A stretch of DNA of 64,000 nt. Origin: Phycisphaerales bacterium. GTDB taxonomy: Bacteria > Planctomycetota > Phycisphaerae > Phycisphaerales > SM1A02. Shown here piece by piece: positions 51,616-64,000 of this stretch (positions are counted from its first letter, which is position 1; every line of letters starts with the position of its first letter). Below the pieces are notes generated by a model. That model ran no database searches. It was not told the DNA's origin and saw only the letters and a list, made by a program, of their open reading frames with translations. The translations under genes and the position numbers were made by a program. The DNA is taken from contig JAQWTL010000012.1 of assembly GCA_029242715.1 (NCBI GenBank), positions 124,001 to 188,000 on the forward strand, given 5' to 3'.

Positions 51616-51761
51616 GCGGCCATTTCATACCTCATGCCTGATCTGGAGCTGGAACGAGCCGCTGGCGCTGTATCTTGAAGGGCGATGGCTTTCAGGCCAT
51701 GCTGTCCACTCGCATTCAAGAGATCGCCCATGATTGGCGAATTCAAGAGGAGTTAGAAAAC

Positions 51762-54260
51762 ATGTTTCATCGATGCCTGGCTGGGCTTGTTCCAGCAATT
51801 GTGATCACCGCTTCTGTTTCAGCAGATGTCATTGACGCCAATCTGGCGCAGCGAATGGAGGAAGTGGGGCCTGGCGGGACTGTTTCTGCACTTGTGTATC
51901 TGAATGAGCAAGTCGATATTCGGAATCTCTCAGAGGACATCGCGGAACAGCGACTTGGGCGAACACTTCGGCACCAGATGGTCGTCGAGACGCTTCAGGA
52001 TATTGCAGCTGCCAGTCAGGGGCCGATCCTCGGTGACATTGACGGTCTTCGTATTCAGGGGCTTGTCGATACTGCCAAGCCATATTGGATTGCAAACCTG
52101 ATCCATGTCGAGGGCCGCCCTGGGGCCATCAAGCAGTTGTCACTGAGAGATGATGTTGGACATATCTATCTTGACTATGGAATTGAATTGATCGAACCCG
52201 ATGCGAAGGGCCCCGTAGTGCCCGCCGCAAATGGTGCTCGAGGCGCCAATCCGACTCCGGGACTGACTGCCATTCGTGCAGATGTTGCCTGGGGCCTTGG
52301 CTTTGATGGGGAGGGTGTACTTGTAGCCATCCTGGATACAGGCGTGGATGGTGGCCATCCGGCATTGCAAGGTCGCTGGGCTGGAAACCATCCTTCTTAC
52401 AGCGGGCATCCAGAGTGGGCATATCACGATCCCTATGGTGGCAATCACGGCAACCCGGTTGATTCCAGCTATCACGGGACCCATGTGATGGGTACGGTCT
52501 GTGGTGGCCTTCCCGGTGAAGTCATCGGAGTGGCTCCTGGCGCCATGTGGATGGCATCACGGGGAATTGATGAGGGTGGCATCGCGCAGACAGTCCTCAA
52601 TGCCATCGACGCGTTCCAGTGGATGGCCGATCCCGACGGTATCGCATTCACTTCATGGGACGTTCCCAATGTCTGTTCGAACTCATGGGGCCTTGTGTCA
52701 TCTCATGGTTACCCCGATTGCGATGAGACCTTCTGGTCCTACATCGATGCGCTGGAAGCAGCCGGCTGCCTGGTCATGTTCTCGGCAGGCAACGAAGGGT
52801 CAGCCAGTAATTCACTTCGCAGGCCTGGTGATCGCGCTATCAGTGATTACAGCTCGATGGCCATCGGGGCCATTGACCCTCACTCAGGCGGCTACCCGAT
52901 CGCCAGTTTTTCATCGCGTGGTCCGACCTATTGCACGGAGACCGGGTCGGCTGCAGTGAAGCCCGATGTTTCAGCACCTGGTGTCGACACCTATTCGGCA
53001 TCTCCCGGGGGCAGCTACACAAATCTCAGTGGCACCTCAATGGCATCTCCGCATGTCAATGGCGCGATTGCCCTGATGTTCCAGGCCAATCCTGAACTTG
53101 AGATCGATATTGCCAAGCTAATCGTTTATGAAACAGCCACAGACCTGGGAATTGCAGGCAAGGACAATGACTACGGCTATGGAATGATCGATTGCGTCAG
53201 AATGATCGAGTCAGCCCTGGAAACCGTCACGCTCTCTTGGGATTTCCCATCCGGTCGTCCAGACTGGTTGGAGCCATCTGGCGGTCACGAGATCGAGATC
53301 ACCATTTCCGGCAACGAACTACAGCCTGACCCAAACTCCGCATTGCTTCACATCATCGCTGGGGGAGGAACGATCGAGATCCCTCTCATCCATGATGGAG
53401 GTTCGAATTATCGTGCGGTCTTCCCTGAATTGAATTGTGGCGCCGTTGTCAGTTACTACTTCTCAGTCGAATCCACGGAAGGCGACTTCTCTACAAGTCC
53501 TTACAGTGCTCCAGACTCAACATGGTCCGGAACTGCATGGTCGGGTTATGAGCAGAGTTATCTGGATGACTTTGAATCAGATCAGGGTTGGGAAATCGTC
53601 TCTGGTGCTCTGACTGGTAACTGGGTACGCGCGACACCATCCGAGGGTGGTGATCGTTGTGATCCGGGATCTGATTCAGATGGCAGTGGCCAGTGCTACG
53701 TGACTGGCAATAGTGGTGATGAAGATGTGGATGATGGCGAGACTGTTTTGACATCACCAACCATGGATGCCGCTGCAGATGAGGCCATTATCGAATACGA
53801 CTTCTGGTACAACAACGGCGCCAGCTGTGGCGGTGCGGATTCAGGCAATGATGTGTTCATTGTTGAAATATCCGCCGATGGCGGTCTCAACTGGTATCTG
53901 CTGGATACCGTTGGCCCCACTGGTTCTGAGGTCAACGGAGGTTGGATCACACGGGCCTATCCGGTTGTTGATCTTGCCGTCGGCCCATCAGATCAAATGC
54001 GACTTCGTTTCACCTGCGGCGATCTTGGAGAAGGCTCCATTGTCGAGGCGGGCGTTGATAATGTTCGTATCGGCTATCACTTCTGCAATGAAAGCAACCC
54101 ATGCCCGGGTGACTTCGATGAGGATGGCTACATCGGTGTCAATGACATCCTTTACATCATCTCAGCGTGGGGTACTCCTGACGGTGATATCAATGACGAC
54201 AACGAGACCAATGTCGATGACGTCCTTCTGCTGCTGAATGCATTTGGAGACGAATGCTGA
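51762..54260 (+). CDS. Secreted subtilisin-like (S8) serine protease with C-terminal EF-hand pair
   Basis: An 832-residue exported protease. ATG 51762 has GAGGAG upstream and begins a signal peptide; the frame is open from 51675. The S8 catalytic triad is intact: Asp in V-A-I-L-D-T-G-V-D-G near residue 190, His in Y-H-G-T-H-V-M-G near 238, and Ser in S-G-T-S-M-A-S-P-H near 425. An N-terminal propeptide-like part (~30-165) precedes it. C-terminal to the protease is a jelly-roll/P-domain-like region (~490-770), then D-F-D-E-D-G-Y-I-G-V-N-D-I-L and D-I-N-D-D-N-E-T-N-V-D-D-V-L calcium loops and a final F-G-D-E-C. Likely degrades external protein. Confidence 0.93.
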   Translation: MFHRCLAGLVPAIVITASVSADVIDANLAQRMEEVGPGGTVSALVYLNEQVDIRNLSEDIAEQRLGRTLRHQMVVETLQDIAAASQGPILGDIDGLRIQGLVDTAKPYWIANLIHVEGRPGAIKQLSLRDDVGHIYLDYGIELIEPDAKGPVVPAANGARGANPTPGLTAIRADVAWGLGFDGEGVLVAILDTGVDGGHPALQGRWAGNHPSYSGHPEWAYHDPYGGNHGNPVDSSYHGTHVMGTVCGGLPGEVIGVAPGAMWMASRGIDEGGIAQTVLNAIDAFQWMADPDGIAFTSWDVPNVCSNSWGLVSSHGYPDCDETFWSYIDALEAAGCLVMFSAGNEGSASNSLRRPGDRAISDYSSMAIGAIDPHSGGYPIASFSSRGPTYCTETGSAAVKPDVSAPGVDTYSASPGGSYTNLSGTSMASPHVNGAIALMFQANPELEIDIAKLIVYETATDLGIAGKDNDYGYGMIDCVRMIESALETVTLSWDFPSGRPDWLEPSGGHEIEITISGNELQPDPNSALLHIIAGGGTIEIPLIHDGGSNYRAVFPELNCGAVVSYYFSVESTEGDFSTSPYSAPDSTWSGTAWSGYEQSYLDDFESDQGWEIVSGALTGNWVRATPSEGGDRCDPGSDSDGSGQCYVTGNSGDEDVDDGETVLTSPTMDAAADEAIIEYDFWYNNGASCGGADSGNDVFIVEISADGGLNWYLLDTVGPTGSEVNGGWITRAYPVVDLAVGPSDQMRLRFTCGDLGEGSIVEAGVDNVRIGYHFCNESNPCPGDFDEDGYIGVNDILYIISAWGTPDGDINDDNETNVDDVLLLLNAFGDEC

Positions 54261-57643: not shown

Positions 57644-58020
57644 ATGATCGCTTCGGCCTCGATCTCCACAAGAGCATCAGCAAACAAGCCTGTGACAACA
57701 ACCATCGTCGACACGGGTGCCGTGTCGCCAAATCGTTGCTTGAAGGTGAGGCCGATGGTTTCGGCATCTTCCATTCGCGTTATATACGTCCGCAGGCTGA
57801 TGACTTCACAGAGGCTGGCCCCGGCCTCCTGCAGAGCGGCCCCGATGCGATCAAGGATGCAGTTCACTTGACCTGCAGGATCATCTGGATGAAGAAGGCC
57901 CCCCTGACTGTCTGCAGCAATCGTTCCAGCGACCACGATGTGGTTGTCCACACGTACGGCCCGTGAATATCCATATCGAGCTTCCCAGGGTGTACCGCTG
58001 GAGATGTTCTGGCGAGCCAT
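57634..58020 (-). CDS. ridA: RidA/YjgF family enamine/imine deaminase
   Basis: A 128-residue protein; start ATG 58020 matches the short family length (the frame is open far upstream but that part is low-complexity). Seen: Y-G-Y-S-R-A-V-R-V near residue 16, G-T-I-A-A near 32, and V-S-L-R-T-Y-I-T near 73, with the family Arg and a terminal V-E-I-E-A-E-A-I. RidA proteins hydrolyse reactive enamines/imines from PLP enzymes. The start lies only 19 bases from the divergent mogA, so their promoters overlap the coding regions. Confidence 0.88.
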   Translation of the reverse strand: MARQNISSGTPWEARYGYSRAVRVDNHIVVAGTIAADSQGGLLHPDDPAGQVNCILDRIGAALQEAGASLCEVISLRTYITRMEDAETIGLTFKQRFGDTAPVSTMVVVTGLFADALVEIEAEAIIQS

Positions 58021-58039
58021 GGTCGAGGACTCCGTTAGC

Positions 58040-58588
58040 ATGGCGGTCATGACCGCAGAAATTGGAATCGTCACCGTATCCGACCGAGCCCATCGTGGGG
58101 AATATGAGGACCGTGGTGGCCCGGCCATAGAGGCCTGGCTCAAGGAAGTGCTAGCCAGTCCATGGCAGCCCGTGAGCAGGCTCGTGCCTGATGAACAGCC
58201 GCAGATAGAAGGCGTGCTGAAGGAACTTGCTGATGAGTGCGGCTGTGGGCTGATCGTGACAACTGGCGGCACTGGTCCAGCTCCCAGGGACGTCACGCCT
58301 GAGGCAACCGAGGCAGTCTGTAATCGCATGCTGCCTGGATTCGGGGAGCTCATGCGACTGGAGTCCCTCAAAGTCGTTCCCACAGCAATTCTGTCCAGGC
58401 AGGTGGCTGGCATTCGCGGATCTTCTCTGATCATCAACCTCCCTGGGAAGCCCTCAGCCATCGGGGAGTGCCTGGATGCTATTTTCGCAGCCGTTCCATA
58501 TTGCCTTGACCTTATCGGGGGAGCTCGTCTCGAGACAGATCCAGATCGACTGGTTGCCTTCCGACCTGGCGCTACAATGAAGCCGTGA
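58040..58588 (+). CDS. mogA: Molybdenum cofactor biosynthesis protein MogA/MoaB
   Basis: A 182-residue MoCF-fold protein. ATG 58040 with GAGGA upstream is chosen; the frame is open from 57938. Motifs: I-G-I-V-T-V-S-D-R-A near residue 10, V-T-T-G-G-T-G near 75 and D-V-T-P-E-A-T near 87 (the molybdopterin-binding region), and I-N-L-P-G-K-P near 135. It adenylylates molybdopterin in Moco synthesis. The stop overlaps the next start by four bases (GTGA), linking it to the sufE gene. Confidence 0.93.
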   Translation: MAVMTAEIGIVTVSDRAHRGEYEDRGGPAIEAWLKEVLASPWQPVSRLVPDEQPQIEGVLKELADECGCGLIVTTGGTGPAPRDVTPEATEAVCNRMLPGFGELMRLESLKVVPTAILSRQVAGIRGSSLIINLPGKPSAIGECLDAIFAAVPYCLDLIGGARLETDPDRLVAFRPGATMKP

Positions 58589-59019
58589 CAACAAACGCCC
58601 CCATGACGATCGAGCAGTTGAATGAGGCCTTCGAGTTCCTGGAGGACTGGGAGGATCGTTATCGCTTCATCATGGATCTTGGCAAAAAGCTACCGCCCAT
58701 GCCAGATTCCGAGCGAACCAAAGAAAACTTGGTTCACGGATGTCAAAGCACCGTGTGGGTTTCTGCTCAGTCGCCAGGCGGAGTTGGCGCTCCTGTACAT
58801 CTTCATGCAGACAGTGATTCTGATCTGGTCAAGGGTTTGGCGGCCATGGTCGTGATCATGCTCTCTGGCAAGGGCGCTGCTGAGATTGCGACCTGCGATC
58901 TGGAGGCCAGTTTCGACCGACTGGGTCTGCATGAACATCTCAGCCCGACACGCAGCAATGGTCTGCATGGGATGGTGAGACAGGTCAAGTCACGTGCGGC
59001 TGCAATTGCAGCCGCATGA
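58585..59019 (+). CDS. sufE: SufE family sulfur acceptor protein
   Basis: A 144-residue protein starting at GTG 58585, overlapping mogA by four bases. The sulfur-accepting Cys is in L-V-H-G-C-Q-S-T-V-W near residue 52, and the pattern G-K-K-L-P-P-M and H-A-D-S-D-S-D-L-V-K-G-L is typical. SufE takes persulfide sulfur from SufS for iron-sulfur cluster assembly. No suf operon is adjacent. It ends directly against the convergent flavin reductase. Confidence 0.93.
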   Translation: MTTNAPMTIEQLNEAFEFLEDWEDRYRFIMDLGKKLPPMPDSERTKENLVHGCQSTVWVSAQSPGGVGAPVHLHADSDSDLVKGLAAMVVIMLSGKGAAEIATCDLEASFDRLGLHEHLSPTRSNGLHGMVRQVKSRAAAIAAA

Positions 59020-59687: not shown

Positions 59688-61262
59688 GTGCATGGTTCAG
59701 ACCAAGGAACAGGCGGCCGCCCCTCGGGGAAGCGACTCTCTCTCTTCGTCCTAGCGATGATGAATGTTGCCGTGGTGGTTGGCCTTGAAGGGCTGCCCAC
59801 CATGGGCAATTTCGGCCTGAGTTTGGTGGTCATCTATGCCTTCTTCGCGGTGATCTTCTTCCTGCCTGTTGGACTTGCCGCAGCTGAACTGGGCGGTGGA
59901 TGGCCTGCAGAGGGCGGGGTCTACAACTGGATCAAGGAAGCCATGGGGGAGCGAATGGCTTTCGTTGGCATCTGGTGCCAGTGGGTTCAGATTGTCGTGT
60001 GGTATCCGACAGTGTTGGCGCTCTGTGCCACCTCCATCGCCTACATGTTCAATCCGGCCTATGACCAGTATGTCTGGTTTTCGGTTCCAATCATGCTCAT
60101 CGTTTTCTGGGCATCAACCCTGATCAATTTCAAGGGTTTGAACTTCAGTGGCATGATGACCACCATCTGCCTCTATGCAGGCACGTTCATACCTGTTCTG
60201 ATGGCGATTGGTTTTGCAGTCTGGTGGGTTGCCAGTGGTCGGGAAAGTTATGTTCCATTGACATTCGATGCCTTGTTTGATTTCACGCCAGGGACAAATG
60301 CTCCTGTTGACCAGGTTGCTTCCACTGGAATCGGGCATCATGCTCAGGGGCATCCTCATGTCGAAGGGCTTCATGCAGAATCGGCGCCATTCACCATCGG
60401 TTCTCTTGTTGCAGCAGTTGCCGTGTTCTCCTTTCTCTCCGGCCTCGAAGTCAATGCGGTTCATTTCCGGCGAGTTCGCAACCTGCAGCGGGCTGTTCCG
60501 ATTTCGCTTCTGATCTCTGGCGTCTTGATTCTGCTGGTTTCGGTGCTTGGTGCCCTGAGTGTGGCGGTTCTTGTTCCCCTTGAAGAAATGAAACTGACAG
60601 CGGGCACCTTGCAGGTTTTCCAGAAGGTCTTCGGGACACTGGGTATCGAATGGTTGTTGCCAGTCATGGCTTTTCTGGCTTTGTTTGGGATGATCGGCCA
60701 CATCATGGTCTGGGTCATTGGCCCTACCGAATCGCTCAGGGTGGCGGCATCAGATGGTGTCATTCCGCCTATCTTCCAGAAAACGACTCGAGGCGGTGCT
60801 CCGAGAAACGTGATGCTCGTCCAGGCTCTGGTGGTTTCTCTGATATGCCTGATGAACCTCTTCCTGGATCTCAATCGTGTTTTCTATGTGCTGACCATCA
60901 TTTCAGCCCAGATCTATCTGGTGATGTATGCCTTGATGTTCATCTCATTGATACGCCTGCGACTCACGCAGCCCAAAGTGAATCGTCCATTCCGGATTCC
61001 CGGAGGAATCATGGGCGTCTTTGTGGTCGGGGGCATCGGTCTGCTGGGTTGTCTTGGCGGCATCGTGTTCGGTTTCTTCCCGCCTTCCCAGAGTGATATA
61101 AAGATGCCAGCAGAGTTCCTGATTCCAGTGGTCTCGATTGGATTCCTGGTCACGATGATTCTTCCTTTCATCTTCTTCAAATGCCGCAATCCTGAGTGGG
61201 CCAAGAACAGCGATCTTCCTCGGGCTGAAGAAGCCAGGAAACGATGGATACGAGGCGACTGA
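59688..61262 (+). CDS. APC superfamily amino acid permease/antiporter
   Basis: A 524-residue, 12-helix permease. GTG 59688 is used; M-M-N-V-A-V-V-V-G at 59757 is an alternative start. The helix-1 segment L-F-V-L-A-M-M-N-V-A-V-V-V and helix-2/3 motifs (A-E-L-G-G-G-W-P-A-E-G-G-V-Y-N-W) match glutamate:GABA antiporters (GadC-type) and amino acid/organic-anion exchangers. It overlaps the sulfotransferase-like gene by one base (TGATG), making a three-gene operon with the aminotransferase. Confidence 0.9.
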   Translation: MHGSDQGTGGRPSGKRLSLFVLAMMNVAVVVGLEGLPTMGNFGLSLVVIYAFFAVIFFLPVGLAAAELGGGWPAEGGVYNWIKEAMGERMAFVGIWCQWVQIVVWYPTVLALCATSIAYMFNPAYDQYVWFSVPIMLIVFWASTLINFKGLNFSGMMTTICLYAGTFIPVLMAIGFAVWWVASGRESYVPLTFDALFDFTPGTNAPVDQVASTGIGHHAQGHPHVEGLHAESAPFTIGSLVAAVAVFSFLSGLEVNAVHFRRVRNLQRAVPISLLISGVLILLVSVLGALSVAVLVPLEEMKLTAGTLQVFQKVFGTLGIEWLLPVMAFLALFGMIGHIMVWVIGPTESLRVAASDGVIPPIFQKTTRGGAPRNVMLVQALVVSLICLMNLFLDLNRVFYVLTIISAQIYLVMYALMFISLIRLRLTQPKVNRPFRIPGGIMGVFVVGGIGLLGCLGGIVFGFFPPSQSDIKMPAEFLIPVVSIGFLVTMILPFIFFKCRNPEWAKNSDLPRAEEARKRWIRGD

Positions 61263-61999
61263 TGAACCGGATCATTGCCATGTGGTCTGGGCCGCGGAAT
61301 ATCTCCACGGCCATGATGCGGTCATGGGAGAACAGGCCGGATACCACCGCCTGGGATGAACCCCTGTATGCCTGCTTTCTCCTTCAGACGGGGATCGATC
61401 ATCCTGGTCGCGAACATGTGCTTGAAAAGCACTCGCATGAAACCTGCTACGAATCCGTGGTTGAAAGATTGCTTGCTGATATTCAAACGCCGATCTTCTA
61501 TCAGAAACATATTGCGCATCATCTTCTTGACGACATGGACAGATCATGGATGGATGATGAAAGAGTGGACCATTGTTTCCTGATCAGGGATCCTCGTGAA
61601 GTGATTCTGTCTCTGCATAAAAGATTCCCGGGAATGGAACTCCGTGATACGGGGTTGCCTCAACAGGTCGAGATTTTTCAACGACGACTGGAGGTAACGG
61701 GCCAGACGCCTCCCGTCATTGATGCACGTGATGTTCTGGAGGACCCTGGGGGCACACTTGGCGCGTTGTGCGATCGTCTTGATATTCCATTTGTTGACTC
61801 GATGCTTTCATGGCCTGAGGGGCCGCGGGCTTGTGATGGAGCCTGGGCGGATTGGTGGTACGACTCTGTCAGAGCCTCAACAGAATTTGCGGCCTGGTCT
61901 CCCAGGGAAGGCGATGTGCCAGATCATCTGGGCCCGGTGCATGATGCATGCCAGGCACTTTACGAACAGTTACATGTCCATCGGATCAGGGGAACATGA
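61262..61999 (+). CDS. Sulfotransferase-like P-loop protein
   Basis: A 245-residue protein; ATG 61262 overlaps the permease stop (TGATG). It has the PAPS-binding-like start W-S-G-P-R-N-I-S-T-A-M-M near residues 8-19, D-E-P-L-Y-A near 33, and the 3'-phosphate region R-D-P-R-E-V near 108, with W-W-Y near 200. In plants the same architecture is fused in one chain to a class IV aminotransferase; here that aminotransferase is the next gene. Substrate unknown, and the sulfotransferase activity is inferred. Confidence 0.85.
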   Translation: MNRIIAMWSGPRNISTAMMRSWENRPDTTAWDEPLYACFLLQTGIDHPGREHVLEKHSHETCYESVVERLLADIQTPIFYQKHIAHHLLDDMDRSWMDDERVDHCFLIRDPREVILSLHKRFPGMELRDTGLPQQVEIFQRRLEVTGQTPPVIDARDVLEDPGGTLGALCDRLDIPFVDSMLSWPEGPRACDGAWADWWYDSVRASTEFAAWSPREGDVPDHLGPVHDACQALYEQLHVHRIRGT

Positions 62000-62000
62000 C

Positions 62001-62906
62001 GTGCTCCAGAAATATGACGAACGCAATCGTGACCTGCTGATCAACATCAATGGAAAGATACTGCATCGAGATGAAGCAGGTATCAGTCCATTTGATTCAG
62101 CCGTTCAGGGCGGAGATGCCGTATGGGAAGGCCTCCGCGTTTACGACGGCCGCATATTCCGTTTTCGGCAGCATCTGGATCGACTCCGTGCTTCGGCGGA
62201 GGCGGTGTCATTTGCCGAGATCCCTTCGCATGAATCAATCATCGAAGAGGTTCGCCGGACGCTTGAAGCCAATGGCATGCGTGATGGCGTTCATATTCGA
62301 CTGACCCTCACACGAGGCTTGAAGGTGACCAGCGGAATGGATCCACGTCTCAACACCTCCGGGCCTACGCTCATCGTGCTCGCTGAGCACAAGCGTCCGG
62401 TATATGACAAGTCAGGCCTTCGTCTTGCGACAAGCAGTATTCGAAGATTCTCACCGGATCAACTGGATCAGCAGATCCACTCATGCAACCTTCTACAGTC
62501 AATCATGGCCAAGATCCAGGCCAACAATGCCGGTGCGGATGATGCGCTGATGCTGGATGCGCGTGGATTCATTGCTGAAACCAATGCAACACATCTTTTT
62601 TTCGTACACGGTGAAATGGTGACGACTTCACATGTGCTTTGTTGTCCTGAGGGCGTGACTCGCTCGGTGGTCCTGGAGTTATGTCGCAAATCAGGAATCC
62701 AATGCCATGAAGGGGACTACGAACTGGAGCACGCTCTTTGCGCGGATGAGGTCTTCTGTACCGGGACCATGGGCGAGCTTGCTTCTGTCGTTGAAATCGA
62801 TGGGCAGATGATTGGCGATGGAAAAATCGGGTCCATGACCACAAGGCTTTCGGGACTGTTCAGTGAATGTGTTGCCGATGAAGCTGAGCCAGTGCTTGAT
62901 ACGTGA
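62001..62906 (+). CDS. Class IV (branched-chain/D-amino acid type) aminotransferase
   Basis: A 301-residue PLP enzyme. AGGGG lies eight bases before GTG 62001, two bases after the upstream stop; an in-frame ATG 61974 would overlap. Motifs: G-G-D-A-V-W-E-G-L-R-V-Y near residue 34, R-L-T-L-T-R-G near 96, H-S-C-N-L-L near 160 with the PLP Lys just after in I-M-A-K-I-Q, and T-G-T-M-G-E-L near 253. It transaminates branched-chain or D-amino acids in the family. Forms an operon with the sulfotransferase-like gene; ends directly against xylB. Confidence 0.9.
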   Translation: MLQKYDERNRDLLININGKILHRDEAGISPFDSAVQGGDAVWEGLRVYDGRIFRFRQHLDRLRASAEAVSFAEIPSHESIIEEVRRTLEANGMRDGVHIRLTLTRGLKVTSGMDPRLNTSGPTLIVLAEHKRPVYDKSGLRLATSSIRRFSPDQLDQQIHSCNLLQSIMAKIQANNAGADDALMLDARGFIAETNATHLFFVHGEMVTTSHVLCCPEGVTRSVVLELCRKSGIQCHEGDYELEHALCADEVFCTGTMGELASVVEIDGQMIGDGKIGSMTTRLSGLFSECVADEAEPVLDT

Positions 62907-64000
62907 TCAGTCCGCGTGAAAGATGGGGGCGAGTGCGGGGTACACGGTCCGCCACCGATCATGCAGGTCATCGTAGAGCCGGGCGTCATGAGAAGGTTCA
63001 TGGGCGGCTGATTCGTGAATGAATGCCTTCATGGCATTACGGACATCAGGGAATCGGCCGCTGCCGACCATGGCCAGGAGTGCGGCGCCATAGGCGGAGC
63101 CATCTGTCACATTGACCGTGCTGACCGGGAGGTTGAAGATGTCGGCGGCCATCTGTCTCCAGAAACTGCTTCTGGCGCCGCCGCCGGTCATTCTGATGGA
63201 AGTGATGCTCTGGCCACTTGAACGTATAAGATCAAGACCATCCTTGAGTCCAAAGAGAACGCCTTCCAGTACAGCTCTTGCAAAGTGCGATCTCTCATGC
63301 TGATTGGTCATTCCAACGAAGGCACCGCGTGCTTTGGGATCAGCATGTGGAGTTCGTTCCCCGGTCAAGTAGGGGAGGAAGCAGAGACCGTTGCAGCCCG
63401 GAGTCACTGTTCTTGCACCTTCAAGAATTCGGTCATACGCAGCAGCATCGGGTCCTTCAAAGGTATCTCGGTACCACTTGAGACTTCCTCCTGCACTGAG
63501 CATGACACCCATGACATGCCAGGCGCCGGCAACCGCATGACAGTAGCCATGCAATGCGCCTGTAGGGTCGTGCGGTCGTGTGTTGCGGTCTGCAAAGACC
63601 ACGCCTGAGGTGCCCAGGTTCAAAGAGGCGACGGATTCATTCCCGATGCCACAGCCAACTCCACCAGCGGCCTGATCGCCAGCTCCGGCCACTACCGGTG
63701 TGCCGGGTCGAAGGCCAGTCATGGAAGCGGCCCTGGCCGATACGGTTCCGGCGATGTCCTGTGATTCACAGACCTCAGGGAGCAGGGGCCGATCGATCTC
63801 CAGCTTCTGGAGGATCTCATCTGACCAGTCGCGTGTCTCCAGATCCAGCAGCGATGTGCCTGAAGCATCGGATGCATCCATGGCATACGTTCCGGTCAGT
63901 TGGAATCGAACGCTGTCCTTCGGCAGAAGTATCTGCCGGGTTCGAACGAATACCTGTGACTCATGTTGCCTCATCCACAGAATCTTGGGCGCAGTGAAAC
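62907..64000 (-). CDS. xylB: Xylulokinase (FGGY family), 5' end beyond window
   Basis: The frame remains open to the window edge at 64000, so the N-terminus is missing; the last visible upstream codons read F-T-A-P-K-I-L-W, a xylulokinase pattern. About 364 residues are present. Motifs: L-P-K-D-S-V-R-F-Q-L-T-G, the catalytic Asp in G-A-G-D-Q-A-A-G, L-G-T-S-G-V-V-F near 110, and the ATPase-core R-M-T-G-G-G-A-R-S-S. It phosphorylates D-xylulose, linking xylose to the pentose phosphate pathway. The stop abuts the aminotransferase stop. Confidence 0.92.
   Translation of the reverse strand, partial: FTAPKILWMRQHESQVFVRTRQILLPKDSVRFQLTGTYAMDASDASGTSLLDLETRDWSDEILQKLEIDRPLLPEVCESQDIAGTVSARAASMTGLRPGTPVVAGAGDQAAGGVGCGIGNESVASLNLGTSGVVFADRNTRPHDPTGALHGYCHAVAGAWHVMGVMLSAGGSLKWYRDTFEGPDAAAYDRILEGARTVTPGCNGLCFLPYLTGERTPHADPKARGAFVGMTNQHERSHFARAVLEGVLFGLKDGLDLIRSSGQSITSIRMTGGGARSSFWRQMAADIFNLPVSTVNVTDGSAYGAALLAMVGSGRFPDVRNAMKAFIHESAAHEPSHDARLYDDLHDRWRTVYPALAPIFHAD

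Follow-up and report, generated by a model that had tools for sequence, protein, structure and literature searches.

A sulfotransferase gene paired with a gene for a lysine-less class-IV-aminotransferase-like protein in bacteria and archaea

The 3' end of a 64,000-nucleotide stretch of DNA from a Phycisphaerales bacterium (contig JAQWTL010000012.1; the whole stretch is called the window here) carries a sulfotransferase gene (ST) next to a gene for a class-IV-aminotransferase-like protein (AT). In this study, we found that AT lacks the lysine that forms the Schiff base with pyridoxal 5'-phosphate (PLP), and that the pairing of ST with AT is old and wide. We propose that the two genes encode a conserved two-protein module in which both proteins would act on one amino-acid-derived compound, AT working without Schiff-base lysine chemistry, and we give this reading a probability of about one half. 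AT probably does something other than what its aminotransferase name says.

Loss of the Schiff-base lysine in AT

AT (62001..62906, plus strand) matched PF01063 (E 3.2e-43, 148.6 bits, cut-off 28.5), and its structure was predicted with a predicted local distance difference test score (pLDDT) of 91.7. The nearest solved structure was 7z79 (Z 38.3, root-mean-square deviation (rmsd) 1.6, 294 aligned residues, 40% identity), and the fold matched archaeal branched-chain aminotransferases (BCATs) with Z 36.5-37.5. The 50 structure matches listed for the AT model were class-IV-type transaminases and similar proteins. All 20 NCBIfam models that matched AT scored below their cut-offs. The best ones were BCAT-like; the IlvE models TIGR01122 and PRK08320 reached 187.2 (cut-off 245.55) and 235.7 (cut-off 363), and the D-amino-acid transaminase model TIGR01121 reached 139.9 (cut-off 277.45).

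In the HMMER alignment to solved structures, the position of the PLP Schiff-base lysine was occupied by His169 (P0002 numbering; codon CAC, 62478..62480, plus strand). Wild-type 7z79 has Asn in this column and 9j32, its N174K mutant, has Lys; since the two differ exactly there, the column assignment is confirmed from outside. Among 97 family rows, the column held His in 70 and Asn in 25, and two rows were cut off there. All His rows came from loci with the gene order ST-AT (n=70) and all Asn rows from loci with the order AT-ST (n=25). With later loci, the counts rose to 107 His, 26 Asn (7z79 among them) and 14 Lys, and then by nine further Asn and 21 further Lys rows. The lysine was thus retained in 35 of 35 unpaired homologue rows and in none of the 142 family rows, some of which are genes counted twice (69 sequences were left after thinning at 80% identity). 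Rows dropped from the AT set were L026 and L084 (cut at the lysine column), a short L010 fragment, and L160 (length, score and stop filter). Two other class-IV genes in the same genome as the window bear Lys. In the AT tree, from which near-identical rows had been removed as in the ST tree, 51 His rows and 18 Asn rows were each split off by a branch with support 100/100. Together, the lysine-less rows formed one clade, set apart with support 99/95 from the 14 Lys rows, of which L112 sits on a long branch. The lysine-less Asn form is already known as a structure deposit (7z79, 9j32).

The sequence-only reading of the window had placed ST and AT in a shared pathway with sulfated amino acid or amine substrates, which would make AT an ordinary branched-chain or D-amino-acid aminotransferase. 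The PF01063 match, the BCAT-like best models and the close fit to archaeal BCATs agree with such an assignment. However, every NCBIfam score fell short, and the two lysine-bearing class-IV genes of the same genome could do that work. On the missing Schiff-base lysine, AT as an ordinary aminotransferase was rejected, and we hold this version of the pathway to be very improbable. The behaviour of the two genes as a unit was supported, and a link to amino acids is plausible.

We then compared the lysine-less rows with the 35 Lys rows at other positions of the active site. Trp51 (codon 62124..62126) was present in 141 of 142 lysine-less rows, with one gap, and in no Lys row, where Phe or Tyr is found instead. 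His107 (62292..62294), Lys117 (62322..62324) and Lys140 (62391..62393; all four codons on the plus strand) were each present in 142 of 142 lysine-less rows and in none of the Lys rows, so that Trp51 and His107 are signatures of the lysine-less family and the two lysines are confined to it among the compared rows. Glu138 was likewise found in 142 of 142 and in one of 35. Asp195 and Thr206 were also invariant in the lysine-less rows; they are weaker marks of the family because they occur in 21 and four of the Lys rows, respectively. In own-genus comparisons (n=8), dN was 0.11-0.31 with silent sites near saturation, which points to purifying selection. Judged by these residue patterns, the lysine-less family has a rebuilt site and not a decayed one.

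The PLP phosphate-site residues R70, T229, R230 and T265 were kept in the lysine-less rows, with R70, T229 and T265 invariant. Glu202, the counterpart of the Glu that binds the pyridine nitrogen in class IV aminotransferases, was present in the AT of the window and in 107 of 107 His rows, and was Thr or Ser in all Asn rows. Tyr173 was lost in both types. AT might still be a PLP enzyme with its Schiff base relocated to Lys117 or Lys140, as both lysines mark the family throughout and R70, T229 and R230 are retained. The loss of Glu202 in the Asn rows speaks against this, and we consider a relocated lysine unlikely. By analogy with the active sites of IlvE from E. coli and of D-amino-acid transaminase, positions 107, 117 and 140 would lie along the pocket for the substrate. 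Their extra positive charge would favour an anionic ligand, for example a sulfated product or precursor. Since the Schiff-base lysine is replaced and new pocket residues are invariant, AT most likely uses chemistry independent of a Schiff-base lysine.

The sulfotransferase and its PAPS supply

ST (61262..61999, plus strand, 245 aa) is an open reading frame (ORF) that matched PF19798 (Sulfotransfer_5) with E 7.6e-46 and 156.8 bits (curated cut-off 23.2), and its structure was predicted with pLDDT 96.1. The model matched the olefin synthase and curacin sulfotransferases and human tyrosylprotein sulfotransferases (Z 13.3-14.2, rmsd 4.0-4.7), and the same matches were recovered by Foldseek with query-normalised TM-scores of about 0.4-0.55. 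Three motifs were read in the sequence. MWSGPRNIST (61280..61309, plus strand), which we take to be the 5'-phosphosulfate-binding loop, contains W8, S9, G10, P11, R12, N13 and S15, all invariant in 69 aligned rows. DEPLYA (61355..61372, plus strand; residues 32-37) is a candidate for the catalytic base by analogy, and its D32 and E33 were invariant in the ST alignment. LIRDPREVILS (61580..61612, plus strand), presumably the 3'-phosphate-binding motif, has invariant R109 and S117. By family, motifs, fold and the supply described below, ST is predicted to be a sulfotransferase dependent on 3'-phosphoadenosine 5'-phosphosulfate (PAPS).

PAPS is made by adenosine 5'-phosphosulfate (APS) kinase. 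We found APS kinase in 57 of 61 genomes searched in the order of the window, that is, in 33 of 33 ST carriers and 24 of 28 non-carriers. Of 30 pair genomes taken from the wide set of 80 loci described below, 28 had it, as had 11 of 14 control genomes. As the enzyme is frequent without ST, its presence is permissive rather than telling, and it weakly supports the use of PAPS by ST. PAPS reductase gave no match in the genome of the window. Among 20 pair genomes, a long match occurred in six, all bacterial. In 11 archaeal pair genomes, the match was either absent or confined to at most the first 77 of 175 positions; these partial matches had E 3.4e-6 or weaker, five of them still above the family cut-off. 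The absence of a long match in the archaeal genomes suggests that PAPS there probably serves something other than reduction. Six marine archaea with the pair (G074-G079) have genomes of about 0.9-1.5 Mb. APS kinase gave a full match in four of them, a partial match in one and none in one, and none of the six had a full-length match to PAPS reductase.

Other sulfotransferase-like genes were also recorded. PF13469 matches, counted regardless of their position relative to the pair, were present in 10 of 11 archaeal pair genomes. Plasmids yielded four weak matches, of which three, all PF19798 genes, were read (L164-L166). These distant genes lie near cysC in Dolichospermum and in one Streptomyces, and in the other Streptomyces within an adenylation-domain cluster; no aminotransferase was among the genes listed at the three plasmid loci. 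Viral contigs (one scan) and phages yielded no relative.

Spread, linkage and neighbourhood of the pair

Of the 61 genomes searched in the order of the window, 33 have ST, the genome of the window among them; in genome G007, no more than a fragment of ST was present, at the end of a contig. AT (at 55% identity or more) was present in exactly these 33 genomes, and four of the six families searched mix pair carriers with non-carriers. At every one of the 30 fetched loci, the window included, AT shared the strand of ST and lay at most about 1.3 kb away; two of these AT matches (L010, L026) were partial. We next scanned 84,980 species genomes with the ST alignment. At least 594 stretches matched, 582 of them confirmed, and the best 80 of the at least 594 were taken as a wide set, a few of whose contigs are also in the 30-locus set. 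A same-strand AT was near ST in 67 of these 80 loci, with the order ST-AT in 42 and AT-ST in 25. The 80 loci span about nine phyla in two domains: Planctomycetota, Verrucomicrobiota, Gemmatimonadota, Chloroflexota, Bacteroidota or Rhodothermota, Pseudomonadota, Fidelibacterota and Actinomycetota among bacteria, and marine Thermoplasmatota among archaea. Nocardioides litoris and Dokdonella fugitiva are examples of cultured carriers. As the loci were picked by their likeness to the ST of the window, the true range of the pair may differ.

These results support the view that the two genes behave as a unit, as had been supposed from the window alone. Of the pair or fusion to be looked for in other bacteria, the pair was found; none of five long ST reading frames among the 80 loci had AT in frame. 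Chance or hitchhiking adjacency of unrelated genes would allow for the genomes that carry AT without ST (seven, described below), but it leaves the co-occurrence and linkage over about nine phyla and in both gene orders without a cause, and we regard it as extremely improbable. A history of ST re-pairing between AT types was also considered. The ST gene tree first mixed the AT-type labels (six changes, the starred branches forcing two to three). An approximately unbiased (AU) test on a thinned set, which left out STs without a known partner and one long-branch row, did not reject a single clade of Asn partners (p 0.523) or of His partners (p 0.435), and the claim of re-pairing was dropped.

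The window ends with three plus-strand genes in the order permease, ST and AT, followed by a converging xylulokinase-like gene, and both ORFs of the pair were confirmed as real. The motifs named in the sequence-only reading were found as well, DEPLYA in ST and GGDAVWEGLR in AT (residues 46-55). The permease (59688..61262) is of the APC family and GadC-like, below NCBIfam cut-offs and with an uncertain start codon; the pair thus lies directly behind an amino-acid transporter, as the sequence-only reading had it. Its stop codon (61260-61262) overlaps the ST start by one base. ST runs from ATG at 61262 to TGA at 61999, and AT ends with TGA at 62906. The start of AT is more likely GTG at 62001 than the alternative in-frame ATG at 61974, which would overlap ST, because the family consensus begins MLQxFDxRNRD. 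The gap between ST and AT is then one base and not the two claimed earlier. The xylulokinase gene (62907-63998, minus strand; TIGR01312 above cut-off) runs off the window end; five of the six own-genus loci show the same neighbour beside the pair, and the remaining one is cut by a contig end. Further upstream in the window, we noted a molybdopterin adenylyltransferase-like gene that shares four bases with a SufE gene (57938-59019, plus strand), and, read by eye, a subtilase-like protein with a C-terminal dockerin-like repeat (51675-54260, plus strand).

An amino-acid permease precedes the pair in six of six own-genus loci, the window included. Outside the genus, no permease was found beside the pair among the 80 wide loci, and the other loci of the order have 1.5 kb flanks. 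In marine group II archaea, a SAICAR-synthetase-like gene lies upstream of the pair. In marine group III (L039, L087, L097 and L108), AT is preceded by an FAD-dependent oxidoreductase gene, and a desaturase-like gene lies downstream of ST. In Chloroflexi, a molybdopterin enzyme is encoded downstream. Two candidates for a shared neighbour were rejected: the ATP-binding cassette (ABC) transporter ATPases at 17 loci are of several kinds in varying places and strands, and of the opposite-strand frames common to 12 loci, four were scanned and none had a Pfam match.

AT also occurs without ST. In a set of 41 genomes around an Asn-type Azospirillum, an Asn-type AT was present in nine. Two of the nine have an adjoining ST and seven have none nearby, and no ST was found anywhere in those seven (18 of the 41 genomes searched, all nine included). 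Strict obligate pairing of the Asn form was thereby ruled out. The seven ST-less ATs retain the signature residues except Cys224. In the four ST-less regions read (L199-L202, from the seven genomes), AT lies downstream of an amino-acid-type ABC transporter operon in every case. One of these regions, L199, has a GntR-type regulator beyond the operon, on the side away from AT, and AT itself is followed by a CLC-type chloride channel. With the APC permease in the genus of the window and the ABC transporter in the Azospirillum-like genomes, amino-acid import is a recurring theme around AT.

Proposed function and comparison with known systems

We propose that ST moves a sulfo group from PAPS onto a small amino-acid-derived compound, and that AT may handle this compound too, without the help of a Schiff-base lysine. 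The transporters beside the pair suggest that the substrate probably derives from amino acids or amines taken up by the cell. Several observations weigh against this proposal. The persistence of AT in seven genomes without ST implies a role apart from ST there, and the loss of Glu202 weakens the case for PLP-type chemistry in the Asn clade. No third gene was found at a constant place across phyla by neighbour clustering and Pfam scans. The genome of the window holds seven further sulfotransferase-like stretches, and APS kinase is so common that it says little about ST. Of the 13 wide loci (of 80) without AT in the flank, eight belong to genomes that carry a His-type AT at another place, which speaks for the proposal. 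The other five count against it, only lysine-bearing AT-like genes having been found there in this search. Two of those five STs (L050, L062) stop no more than 45 bases short of a contig end, and the other three (L040, L081, L082) are followed by 0.7-6 kb of sequence, with AT not in the flank.

AT could instead be a non-catalytic pseudoenzyme that binds ST, or the ligand of ST, and serves as a subunit for regulation or scaffolding. The lysine is gone in all readable family rows, with Glu202 missing from the Asn rows as well and Tyr173 from both types, and the tight linkage of the genes fits a complex. The plant fusion protein on which the sequence-only reading drew would fit a complex too, if real. 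Against this, AT persists without ST in the seven genomes, and several active-site columns are invariant, not the framework alone. We regard a pseudoenzyme as a serious but rather doubtful explanation.

Pfam scores AT genes as aminotransferases, and they would be placed in amino-acid pathways despite the missing reaction residue. That a family has lost the lysine and then kept a rebuilt pocket in both bacteria and archaea suggests a reaction or a binding role not yet described; the adjoining sulfotransferase offers a concrete handle for finding the substrate of AT. PF19798 is among the search profiles of a published study (PMC12506393), the main text of which contains neither "aminotransferase" nor "BCAT". 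The open-licence literature searched yielded nothing on the Asn form, the His form or the pair; publication elsewhere is possible. A description of the plant fusion was likewise not found in that literature. By the sequence-only reading, such a fusion in plants such as Arabidopsis would have the sulfotransferase-like part first, as in the His-type pairs, and closely similar motifs; the candidate Arabidopsis proteins are At3g05190 and At5g27410. If it belongs to the family, the same open function would exist in model plants, where knockouts are easy.

Among known systems, the closest to AT is the aminotransferase-like protein of Variovorax paradoxus (7z79/9j32), which belongs to the same lysine-less family and falls inside the Asn clade. 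It differs from the AT of the window in having Asn and not His at the lysine site and in not keeping Glu202. The archaeal BCATs 5mqz and 5e25 share the fold and most framework residues of AT. They differ from AT in retaining the lysine, in having Phe and Tyr at positions 51 and 107, respectively, and in the absence of Lys117 and Lys140. For ST, the nearest solved sequences were those of CurM (4gbm) and olefin synthase (4gox), whose matches (E 1.7e-7 and 6.1e-7) covered under half of the profile. Their folds matched ST with Z 13.8 and 14.2 at 17% identity in the structural alignment. Unlike ST, both are domains of polyketide synthases. They sulfate a hydroxyl that is later eliminated, and we know of no link between them and an aminotransferase. 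ColD and E1 are dehydratases dependent on pyridoxamine 5'-phosphate (PMP), of fold type I and acting on sugars, in which His takes the place of the PLP lysine. His-type AT resembles them in this replacement. These likenesses suggest a tentative scheme, improbable in our judgement, in which ST would sulfate a hydroxyl to make it a leaving group and His-type AT, with PMP or PLP, would expel the sulfate via His169. If true, AT would correspond to ColD and E1 within fold type IV, in two domains of life and perhaps, in plants, fused to its sulfotransferase.

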